A stretch of 41,302 nt of DNA, taken from contig CAMZNS010000029.1 of the NCBI GenBank assembly GCA_947313855.1, positions 1-41,302 on the forward strand, given 5' to 3'. The DNA is from an uncultured Deferribacteraceae bacterium. Lineage in GTDB: Bacteria > Chrysiogenota > Deferribacteres > CAMZNJ01. A program made the translations under genes and the position numbers. Shown here in pieces: positions 3,972 through 41,302 of this stretch; the stretch's first letter is position 1; every line of letters begins with the position of its first letter. The notes beneath the pieces were generated by a model. It had not been told where the DNA came from. It did no database searches and saw nothing but the letters and a program-made list of their open reading frames with translations.

Positions 3972-4051
3972 GCTGTGCCGTGGCGAACTTACCACTAGTC
4001 GCTGTGCCGTGGCGAACTTACCACTAGTCGCTGTGTCGTGGGAACTTACCA
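3972..4051. repeat. 29-bp tandem repeat, 2.7 copies
   Basis: Two identical 29-bp units at 3972-4000 and 4001-4029 begin GCTGTGCCGTGGCGAACTTA. A third, shorter and diverged copy runs 4030-4051. The array ends 10 bases before the -35 element of the tRNA-Arg promoter, so it forms the upstream flank of that promoter. Confidence 0.9.
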
Positions 4052-4061
4052 ACGAAATAGC

Positions 4062-4090
4062 TTGACAAACACGGGCTAAGTATGTATAAT
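4062..4090 (+). promoter_or_regulatory. Consensus sigma-70-type promoter of tRNA-Arg
   Basis: TTGACA at 4062-4067 and TATAAT at 4085-4090 are separated by 17 bases and both match consensus exactly. The tRNA 5' end lies 15 bases downstream of the -10 element, which leaves a very short leader to be trimmed by RNase P. Confidence 0.85.
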
Positions 4091-4104
4091 TTGGCTTTCA
4101 ACAT

Positions 4105-4178
4105 GTGCCTGTAGCTCAACAGGATAGAGCAACGGACTTCTAATCCGTAGGTTGGGGGTTCAAGTCCTCCCAGGCACG
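4105..4178 (+). tRNA. tRNA-Arg, anticodon UCU
   Basis: A 74-base cloverleaf. The acceptor stem GTGCCTG/CAGGCAC pairs perfectly. The D-stem is GCTC/GAGC. The anticodon stem ACGGA/TCCGT encloses loop CTTCTAA with anticodon TCT at its centre. A five-base variable region is followed by T-stem GGGGG/CCTCC with loop TTCAAGT. The discriminator base is G and CCA is not encoded. It reads AGA (and AGG by wobble) arginine codons. It is a single-gene unit with its own promoter. Confidence 0.95.
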
Positions 4179-4228
4179 CTTCTTCCCCCCCCCTAAATTA
4201 TGCTACGCCTCGTGTGTGATATTTGCAC

Positions 4229-4285
4229 GATTACGATTACGATTACGATTACGATTGCACGATTACGGTTGCACGATTACGATTG
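4229..4285. repeat. GATTAC-type hexamer array
   Basis: A run of ttacga/gattac hexamers, first pure and then interrupted by gattgcac variants. It lies just downstream of the tRNA gene. No coding frame or palindrome explains it. Confidence 0.75.
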
Positions 4286-4326
4286 CGTACCCCCAACGGT
4301 GCGACTACCATCCACCTCTTTGCACC

Positions 4327-39158: not shown

Positions 39159-39222
39159 ACAGCATACTGCTTTGATAAAAGGTTCATCTAACGAAAATAG
39201 ACCAAAATTTGGAGTTATCAGA

Positions 39223-39564
39223 ATGATGGAAGACAAAAAATATAAAATAGGCGAAGTGGCCAAAATTCTAAAGATTAATACTTCAGCAATACGCTACTAC
39301 GAAAAAGAGTTTGCGGAACTAACACCACAAAAATCCTCTGGGAATCAACGCTACTACAGCTTAGAAAATATCTACTTTCTCAAGAAAATCCGCTACCTCG
39401 TGGAAGAGGAGGGACTCACCCTTGAAGGGGTCAAGAAACAGCTTGCCGATACCGAAAAAATGAAATCAAAGATATTTATCACGAAGCAGGAATTAACATC
39501 AGATTTGTCTGAAATCATCAAGGTGTTAGAAAAATATTCCACGGGCAAAGACGACGATAAATAG
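39223..39564 (+). CDS. MerR-family transcriptional regulator
   Basis: DNA-binding regulator of 113 residues. The MerR winged helix is clear: YKIGEVAKILKINTSAIRYYEKEF, then NQRYYSLENIYFLKKIRYLVEEEGLTLEGVKKQL. The C-terminal part is a short helix for dimerisation without conserved cysteines, so no metal or redox ligand is implied. The frame reaches a TTG at 39172, but GGAG at 39211-39214 fits the ATG at 39223. Candidate targets are the fumarase genes downstream or its own promoter; this is inference from position only. Confidence 0.88.
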   Translation: MMEDKKYKIGEVAKILKINTSAIRYYEKEFAELTPQKSSGNQRYYSLENIYFLKKIRYLVEEEGLTLEGVKKQLADTEKMKSKIFITKQELTSDLSEIIKVLEKYSTGKDDDK

Positions 39565-39683
39565 GTGCTATTGGCAGTTTCTGTTGTAACTGTTTGATAA
39601 ATTTTAGTGATATCTCATAATTTTTATGATACAATCATTTATTACTTGCGTTGTAAATATCTAACTCAGGAGGTCTATTGCTA

Positions 39684-40628
39684 ATGCCTAGTTTAGTTAA
39701 GTCTGGTGCGATTAAGCACGAATCGCTGTATGCACCCCACGGTACCCTGTACGGCTCTGTTCTAGAGCTTATTCGCCTATGTTCCACCACTCTCCCACCC
39801 GATATTGTGGAAGCACTATCGAAAGCCCTTAACGTCGAAGAGGGGGGGAGCATTGCCAAAAATGTTCTCGATTCTGTTCTATCCAACATCGAAATGGCAA
39901 AAAGTGGCTCCACACCCATCTGTCAAGATACAGGTTCGCTGGCTTTTTATGTTCACTACCCCTTCGGCGTGAGCCAAATGAAGCTGCGTGCCCTTATCAA
40001 CGAAGCTGTTCAGGAGGCAACGAAAAAGCAGTACCTTCGCCCTAATGTTGTTGATCCCATCTCTGGCAAAAATACTGGCACAGGTGTTGGGCTCGAAACA
40101 CCACATATCCACTTCGATGAATGGGACAAAGATGAAGTTGAAATACGCCTAATACTAAAAGGTGGCGGTTGCGAAAATGTTGGGATACAGTACGCATTGC
40201 CCCACGGCGAACTCGGAGCATCACGTAGCAACGATGGTGTTCAGAAGGTTGTTATGGACGGCGTCCACAAGGCTCAGGGGATGGGGTGTGCACCCGGTAT
40301 TATCGGTGTCGGTATCGGTGGGGACAGGATTACATCCATGGAAATGGCCAAAAGACAACTCTTTCGCAAAATCGGCAACCGTAATCACGACCCTGTTATT
40401 TCCGAAATGGAAACAGAACTCGTAACCAACCTCAACAAACTAGGGATAGGACCCATGGGGTTCGGAGGGATATCCACCGCCTTGGATGTGTTTTGCGGAG
40501 TTATCCCAAGACACCCAGCAACGTATTACGTATCCATCTCTTACAACTGCTGGGCATTGCGAAGATACACCATGACCATAAGTTACGATAGGGCTAACGG
40601 CACATTGGGGGAGGCATCTTATGATTAG
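39684..40628 (+). CDS. Fumarate hydratase class I, alpha subunit
   Basis: Large subunit of the two-component [4Fe-4S] fumarase converting malate and fumarate in the cytoplasm. The 314 residues carry three cluster cysteines: C80 in ICQDTGS, one in GGGCENVGIQYALP and one in MGCAPGIIGVGIGGDR. The frame reaches a TTG at 39678, but AGGAGG at 39668-39673 suits the ATG at 39684. It overlaps the beta-subunit gene by eight bases. The related L(+)-tartrate dehydratase TtdAB is the main alternative. Presence of fumarate reductase in the window favours fumarase. Confidence 0.92.
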   Translation: MPSLVKSGAIKHESLYAPHGTLYGSVLELIRLCSTTLPPDIVEALSKALNVEEGGSIAKNVLDSVLSNIEMAKSGSTPICQDTGSLAFYVHYPFGVSQMKLRALINEAVQEATKKQYLRPNVVDPISGKNTGTGVGLETPHIHFDEWDKDEVEIRLILKGGGCENVGIQYALPHGELGASRSNDGVQKVVMDGVHKAQGMGCAPGIIGVGIGGDRITSMEMAKRQLFRKIGNRNHDPVISEMETELVTNLNKLGIGPMGFGGISTALDVFCGVIPRHPATYYVSISYNCWALRRYTMTISYDRANGTLGEASYD

Positions 40629-41211
40629 AAAACTTACCACACCGATTAGTGAAAAAGATATTCGTGCGTTGAAGGTTGGCGATCAAGTTTTGCTCAGCGG
40701 AACAATCGTCACAGGGCGAGACGCCGCCCACAAATACATGGTGGAGGAGAAACCTGACTTTATTCGCCCCTACCTCATGGATGGAGTAATCTACCACTGT
40801 GGACCCGTGGTCAAAAAGGATGACGCCACTGGGCAGTACTCATTCGTGTCCGCCGGACCAACAACGTCGAGACGTGAGGAGCCTTACCAAGATACCGTCA
40901 TTGACGAATACTCCATACGGGGCGTTATCGGCAAAGGGGGGATGGGGGATCGAACCGCAGCTGGACTGCAAAAAACAGGTGCGGTGTACATGCATGCTGT
41001 TGGCGGGGCTGGTAGTGCCATTGCCGCTAATGTTTCGGAAGTCTCAAAGGTATTTATGCTAGACGAATTCGGCACACCCGAAGCCTTCTGGGTAATAAAC
41101 GTAGTGGATTTCCCCGTTGTTATTACCATGGACTCCCACGGCGACTCACTGCATAAGGTTGTATTTGAAGAATCAGAAAAGAACTTGGCAAAGCTGTTAG
41201 GGAAAGCGTAG
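40621..41211 (+). CDS. Fumarate hydratase class I, beta subunit
   Basis: Small subunit of the same enzyme, 196 residues, full length. It contains LKVGDQVLLSGTIVTGRDAAHKY, with the GRDAAH catalytic region, GVIYHCGPVV, IGKGGMGDRTAAGLQ and the C-terminal FWVINVVDFPVVITMDSHG. The ATG lies within the last codons of the alpha gene, which implies coupled translation in equal amounts. Together with FrdCAB this gives a malate-to-succinate branch. A GTTGGCGGT repeat array follows its stop and continues to the window edge. Confidence 0.93.
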   Translation: MIRKLTTPISEKDIRALKVGDQVLLSGTIVTGRDAAHKYMVEEKPDFIRPYLMDGVIYHCGPVVKKDDATGQYSFVSAGPTTSRREEPYQDTVIDEYSIRGVIGKGGMGDRTAAGLQKTGAVYMHAVGGAGSAIAANVSEVSKVFMLDEFGTPEAFWVINVVDFPVVITMDSHGDSLHKVVFEESEKNLAKLLGKA

Positions 41212-41238
41212 GGGATGGTTGCTAGTAATATTCATAGT

Positions 41239-41302
41239 GTTGGCGGTGTTGGCGGTGTTGGCGGTTCGGGTAGTGCTGGCGGTGTTGGCGGTGTTGGCGG
41301 TG
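41239..41302. repeat. 9-bp GTTGGCGGT array, truncated by the window end
   Basis: Six or more 9-bp units with one diverged block (TTCGGGTAGTGCTGGC). A frame from ATG 41215 stays open through it to the edge, giving Val-Gly-Gly repeats. It may be a non-coding minisatellite or the start of a glycine-rich gene. Confidence 0.85.

Follow-up and report, generated by a model that had tools for sequence, protein, structure and literature searches.

The window and its tandem arrays

The window, that is, the whole stretch of DNA analyzed here, is the entire contig 29 (CAMZNS010000029.1; 41,302 nt) of assembly GCA_947313855.1. In addition to the genes named in Table 1, it carries two paralogous family-5 extracellular solute-binding proteins side by side (23973-27228) and SdhA (966-2846). 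The latter is up to 74% identical to SdhA of Solidesulfovibrio/Desulfovibrio, versus ~38% for the best homologues in relatives of the same class, Deferribacteres, and is 96% identical to the SdhA of the sister species described below. Judging from sequence, SdhA was likely acquired horizontally in the genus.

The source genome (1,343,155 bp in 49 contigs, 90.7% complete) matches that of 'Ca. Rimicarispirillum atlantis', a member of the Deferribacterota that inhabits the gut of vent shrimp as a symbiont. This species, of the family 'Ca. Microvillispirillaceae', lives among the gut microvilli of its host and has a coding density of 84% (PMC12887300). The host animal is a deep-sea vent shrimp, and the bacterium is spiral-shaped with a reduced genome; its published assembly was built with MEGAHIT from 2x150 bp reads. 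The second genome of the genus, here called the sister species, is probably that of 'Ca. R. nautilei'. All species comparisons rest on one genome per species, with completeness of 91% for this genome and 86% for the sister. In both species, third codon positions on the sense strand are strongly C-rich, with a G-C skew of -0.36 and -0.35, versus -0.19 to +0.47 in 20 class relatives.

Using Tandem Repeats Finder (TRF; score at least 50, period at least 5), 22 tandem arrays were called in the window, occupying 1,930 bp or 4.7% (Table 1). These values agree with a preliminary description of this DNA, in which about twenty arrays and roughly 1.9 kb had been counted by hand. The units measure 7 to 58 bp and are mutually unrelated. 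First-order Markov shuffles of the window (n=30) contained a mean of 0.07 arrays and 2.5 bp. A CRISPR identity was considered for the window arrays, and no spacers were found within them.

Table 1. Tandem arrays in the window, their setting, and the corresponding region of the sister species
Array	Positions	Strand	Setting	Basis	Sister species
29-bp unit x2.8	3972..4051		gap upstream of tRNA-Arg	TRF, tRNA search	different 54-bp unit x4.3 in gap
13/14-bp unit (ACGATT)n	4227..4286		tRNA-Arg / glycerate kinase gap	TRF	46-bp unit x5.2 in gap
12-bp unit x10.9, perfect	7440..7570	-	inside 3' end of DUF1385 gene, encodes (TDAN)n	TRF	related yet different 18-bp unit
14-bp unit x3, perfect	10700..10741		convergent gap	TRF	
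10-bp-based higher-order array, 258 bp	10794..11051		convergent gap before L31-like gene	TRF	shared unit family, other higher-order structure
14-bp unit x2.3	11681..11712		guanylate kinase start	TRF	alignable across
CGTAACA/CGAGTAGC higher-order array, 240 bp	14503..14742		motB / fliL gap	TRF	gap 225 bp shorter
27-bp unit x5.3	15815..15958	+	inside fliO, encodes (AHHVAGTTT)n	TRF	
8-bp unit x5.6	20894..20938		nucleotidyltransferase / MFS gap	TRF	
8-bp unit x9.9	22528..22609		MFS / GDPD gap	TRF	no array
14-bp unit x2.4	23927..23959		convergent gap	TRF	gap also has arrays
15-bp unit x3.6	27480..27533	-	inside MazG gene	TRF	
58-bp unit x2.6, perfect	28185..28337			TRF	single-copy; amplified only in this genome
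degenerate ~30-bp array	30868..30952		PilZ / Bax-inhibitor gap	TRF	
14-bp unit x2.6, perfect	31082..31118			TRF	
18-bp unit x2.8, perfect	32193..32243			TRF	unrelated 29-bp array in gap
7-bp unit x3.7	32621..32646		upstream of lspA	TRF	
14-bp unit array	33320..33382		convergent gap after lspA	TRF	14-bp array
7-bp unit x4.4, perfect	34586..34616			TRF	no array
16-bp unit x10.8	37938..38111			TRF	short single-copy counterpart only
9-bp unit x7.3	41237..41302		cut by contig (= window) end	TRF	

Array density and placement in the genus

The same TRF call was applied to 601 kb (45%) of this genome, to about 297-298 kb of the sister species (plus 21 kb added later), to 392 kb from 20 class relatives, and to a further set of 80 named loci, mostly from Desulfobacterota. 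Arrays number 5.56 per 10 kb and cover 5.29% of bases in this genome (a CRISPR array accounts for ~0.3 percentage points), and the sister species is much the same at 5.65 per 10 kb and 4.43% (about 297 kb). The class relatives have 0.33 per 10 kb and 0.21%, each being at or below 1.5%, and the named loci 0.51 per 10 kb and 0.44%. Arrays in this genus are thus at about 20-25 times the level of its free-living class relatives. Perfect tandem duplications with a period of at least 12 follow suit, at 474 per Mb in this genome, 333 per Mb in the sister, and 2.6 per Mb in the class. Taken together with the shuffles, these densities indicate that the excess is real, genome-wide, genus-wide and lineage-specific, which bears out the earlier proposal of a genome-wide process rather than a set of single accidents. 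Two gut Desulfovibrio loci, with 7.3% and 6.0% tandem repeats, lie far above the remaining named loci. In those parts of the symbiont's published genome papers that a search for 'repeat' covers, this repeat richness does not appear.

Among the 334 TRF arrays in the 601 kb, nearly all canonical units were found once and no single recurring consensus emerged, so that a dispersed family of the REP or BIME type, already rejected in the preliminary description, finds no place here. One of the 334 resembles a CRISPR; it has a 36-nt repeat and occupies positions 4-1989, at the start of another contig. Its size fits the 30-spacer CRISPR array reported from one MAG of 'Ca. R. atlantis', where it lies at the end of a contig (PMC9636832). 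Because TRF counts it among the tandem repeats, it was left out of all per-array analyses (n=333).

Since the assembly comes from short reads put together with MEGAHIT, and since arrays are in excess at contig ends (14 of 43 ends lie inside arrays versus 9.9% by chance, a three-fold difference), it could be argued that the arrays are products of assembly. However, de Bruijn graphs collapse repeats and do not invent them, so that an artefact could only have shortened the arrays. Furthermore, variant copies and a conserved higher-order structure are seen within the arrays, which also preserve the reading frame within genes and occur in the separate MAG of the sister species. An assembly origin is therefore hardly credible. 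What the 2x150 bp reads do impose is an upper limit: no exact self-overlap longer than 129 bp was found, and longer perfect arrays should consequently be missing or lie at contig ends. The statement that copies are often perfect holds for 93 of the 333 arrays, under this limit on longer perfect ones.

As genes were called with a purpose-made simple dicodon model, not an annotation, the division into coding and intergenic DNA follows that model. By this division, 155 arrays are genic, 162 are intergenic, and 16 straddle a border; the array share is 17% for intergenic DNA and 2.6% for coding DNA. The arrays had been described as lying in intergenic gaps; many do, but with 155 of 333 in coding sequence they are not exclusively intergenic. 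The period is divisible by 3 in 141 of the 155 coding arrays (91%) versus 51 of the 162 intergenic ones (31%), although part of the coding share is built in, because a frame-breaking array would split the open reading frame. Between genes, arrays take up 34% of the DNA of convergent gaps, 15% of tandem gaps, and 4% of the divergent gaps, which bear promoters. In the encoded peptides, H, T, A, N, D and P are abundant, whereas aromatic and large hydrophobic residues are scarce. SbcD stands out: its nuclease domain holds a long in-frame His-rich (AHN/AHD/NGH)n insert, which is much shorter in the sister species, and the GNHD motif is kept in both. Phase-variable contingency loci are not matched, as the arrays are found in housekeeping genes and in gaps, and 91% of the coding periods are multiples of 3.

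Relative to other intergenic DNA, arrays have a higher strand asymmetry (0.69 versus 0.60) and G+C content (0.54 versus 0.40). Of 64 arrays in tandem gaps, 44 have their GT-rich strand on the antisense side, versus 51% expected, a modest excess. Within genes, a GT-strand bias was rejected, since orientation merely tracks codon bias (82% versus 78.5% in random coding segments). Slippage driven by hairpins was likewise discarded, as the folding of the arrays is not superior to that of intergenic DNA elsewhere.

Turnover and repair functions

Orthologues of the two species differ with a dS of 0.41 and a dN/dS of 0.10, and fourfold sites are 73% identical. Where either species has an array in an orthologous gap, the median length difference is 50 bp, versus 2 bp for gaps free of arrays. 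Syntenic flanks are available for 62 arrays; by local alignment, 31 of these have more in common with the orthologous gap of the sister than with 19 or more of 20 other gaps. Half of the testable arrays thus share sequence with the sister gap, which suggests that loci persist while units turn over. (A test of 9-mer sharing between orthologous arrays was dropped for local alignment, being too strict at a neutral identity of 73%.) At the window arrays starting at 28185, 37938, 34586 and 22528, the conserved flanks enclose a single-copy or short sequence in the sister. Several arrays originated in this species from sequence still single-copy in the sister, and arrays have been gained or lost since the two species separated. 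This rapid turnover supports the continual expansion suggested earlier.

Perfect two-copy duplications provide a view of how new arrays might begin. Their mean terminal overhang, a direct repeat, is 7.1 nt in this genome and 5.3 nt in the sister, where we estimate less than 1 nt by chance. Short terminal repeats are the form expected from slippage or unequal exchange, the mechanism being read from the form, and some of the overhang could derive from older nested repeats. The few duplications in other genomes have similar overhangs; consequently, the overhang tells the kind of event and not the cause of the raised rate.

Loss of mismatch repair is a classical source of repeat instability, and absent mismatch repair had been put forward for this genome, together with a search for missing mutS, mutL, recJ or sbcCD genes. 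That proposal is not upheld. MutS, MutL, RecJ, SbcD, RecA, RecG, the ExoVII large subunit and PolA were all found in both species. MutS keeps its GDFYE, GPNMAGKS and DEVGRGTS motifs, and MutL keeps DNGMGI, GFRGEAL and DQHIAHE. The 5'-nuclease region of PolA looks intact in this genome; in the sister, the match lies near a contig end and includes the polymerase part only.

The run spectrum points in the same direction. The loops that mismatch repair handles measure at most about 4 nt, and no enrichment of mono- and dinucleotide runs was seen here, their frequency being at the level of the class relatives. Across the genome, long perfect runs occur at 0-8 per Mb for periods 1-5 versus 78 per Mb at period 6 and 130 per Mb at period 9. 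Between genes, the rise is gradual, with 9, 9, 17 and 26 perfect runs of at least three copies at periods 4, 5, 6 and 7, so that the genome-wide step at period 6 is partly due to coding selection for multiples of 3 and to the copy-number threshold. Intergenic period-3 runs of at least three copies number 88 versus 29.5 expected. A sharp size cut-off set by mismatch repair, strong genome-wide and softer between genes, was accordingly not adopted and is of suggestive use only. The spectrum would fit a working mismatch repair, short of proof.

That mismatch repair, recJ or sbcCD is lost or weakened could still be read from the long in-frame insert in the SbcD nuclease region and from MutL and RecG, whose open frames are longer than those of relatives, RecG also scoring lower. 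Given that MutS, MutL, RecJ, SbcD, RecG and ExoVII are present in both species, that the catalytic motifs of MutS and MutL are kept, and that unit sizes lie mostly outside the range of mismatch repair while the shortest runs are normal, such a loss is very improbable.

The SMC protein was found in neither species but is present in 19 of the 19 class relatives searched. This absence is of interest because cells between the microvilli are reported to elongate without division (PMC9636832). If the resulting filaments hold many genomes, as we assume, loss of the SMC condensin might lead to frequent unequal exchange between sister chromosomes, for which RecA is available. Against this stands the incompleteness of both genomes, which puts the chance of a joint absence at ~1%; furthermore, to our knowledge, minisatellites have not been connected with the loss of SMC. 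As the explanation of the arrays, SMC loss thus seems improbable.

Known systems and the origin of the arrays

The nearest precedent is Ehrlichia ruminantium, likewise a small host-restricted genome with several per cent of its sequence in locus-specific tandem repeats. Its published TRF table has 201 rows in 1,516,355 bp, or 133 rows per Mb, covering 6.3% with a mean unit of 139 bp, while E. coli has 0.38% in the same table (PMC3287509). At those TRF settings, this genome yields 894 rows per Mb, 8.6% when summed and 4.7% as a union. For E. ruminantium, active expansion and contraction between strains is described in the account given in PMC10710844, where slipped-strand mispairing is proposed. 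In both cases, many unrelated arrays amount to several per cent of the genome, far above the level of close relatives. Unlike those of E. ruminantium, the units here are mostly 6-60 bp, the arrays are far more numerous, and about half lie inside genes. In the Ehrlichia, repeats lie in noncoding DNA and coding density is ~64%, as far as the summaries of Collins 2005 and Frutos 2006 in PMC10710844 and the account in PMC3287509 go. With 155 of 333 arrays coding and a coding density of 84%, the present case is a variant of the Ehrlichia-type expansion and not a member of it.

Other systems are similar in part. Wolbachia VNTR loci are also symbiont tandem repeats; they are polymorphic, and slippage and concerted evolution have been proposed for them, but they make up 0.1-1.6% of the genome and hairpins are suggested as their trigger (PMC3287509), unlike the arrays here. 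Mutators deficient in mismatch repair and SSR contingency loci resemble the present case in that tandem-repeat copy number changes by slippage. In those systems, however, mainly units of 1-4 nt are affected, whereas the genome described here has mismatch repair genes and a background level of mono- and dinucleotide runs. In yeast rad27 (FEN1) mutants, which are defective in flap processing, minisatellites expand and duplications form at short direct repeats while mismatch repair is intact; these mutants come close in combining expansion with the presence of mismatch repair. The bacterial counterpart of this eukaryotic function, the 5' nuclease domain of PolA, is nevertheless present and intact-looking here.

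The host-restricted life shared with E. ruminantium, the best precedent, raises the question of whether the duplication rate is ordinary and weak selection alone is responsible. In a reduced-genome gut symbiont of small Ne, slightly harmful duplications that are purged in free-living relatives might be fixed, and a high fixation rate would yield the turnover between sister species equally well. However, the dN/dS of 0.10 and the 91% of coding arrays that are frame-preserving indicate that selection is efficient. Moreover, all 20 class relatives are at or below 1.5%, and Wolbachia also stays low, at 0.1-1.6%. Finally, mono- and dinucleotide runs are not raised, although drift should affect them. 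For these reasons, drift alone is less likely, and we regard it as a rather unlikely explanation.

These results have led us to favor, as the probable explanation, a genus in which the rate of local tandem duplication is raised for units of about 5 to 60 bp and the products are filtered by purifying selection. Duplication through slippage-prone replication, as suggested in the preliminary description, or through unequal exchange remains the best reading; the version that invokes loss of mismatch repair does not. New copies would arise during replication or repair, by strand slippage or by out-of-register pairing of sister DNA at short direct repeats. Once two or three copies are present, the same slippage or mispairing route would expand, contract and homogenize them. 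A working mismatch repair would be blind to loops larger than about 4 nt, so that longer units would escape while mono- and dinucleotide tracts stay normal. Purifying selection would then purge events that shift the frame or disrupt promoters, leaving the observed distribution of arrays.

A more specific and tentative version, possible but doubtful, holds that a heritable defect or cell state peculiar to the genus raises the rate at which units beyond the reach of mismatch repair are duplicated, with SMC loss and multi-genome filaments as the candidate. The genome would then be a natural record of duplications that are proof against mismatch repair, and the process would continually supply proteins of housekeeping and repair, SbcD, MutS and PolA among them, with new in-frame repeats.

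The TRF row count is about seven times the published density for E. ruminantium at identical settings, yet MutS and MutL are intact by sequence and selection is efficient. The case therefore separates weak selection from raised mutation, causes that are usually confounded in symbionts. At a dS of 0.41, the two species form a system for counting how minisatellites are born, persist and are lost. Repeats are also seen here to be pushed into conserved enzymes. Short-read assemblies of this symbiont are predicted to break at the arrays, and the arrays themselves provide ready-made variable-number markers for tracing the transmission of the symbiont among shrimp.
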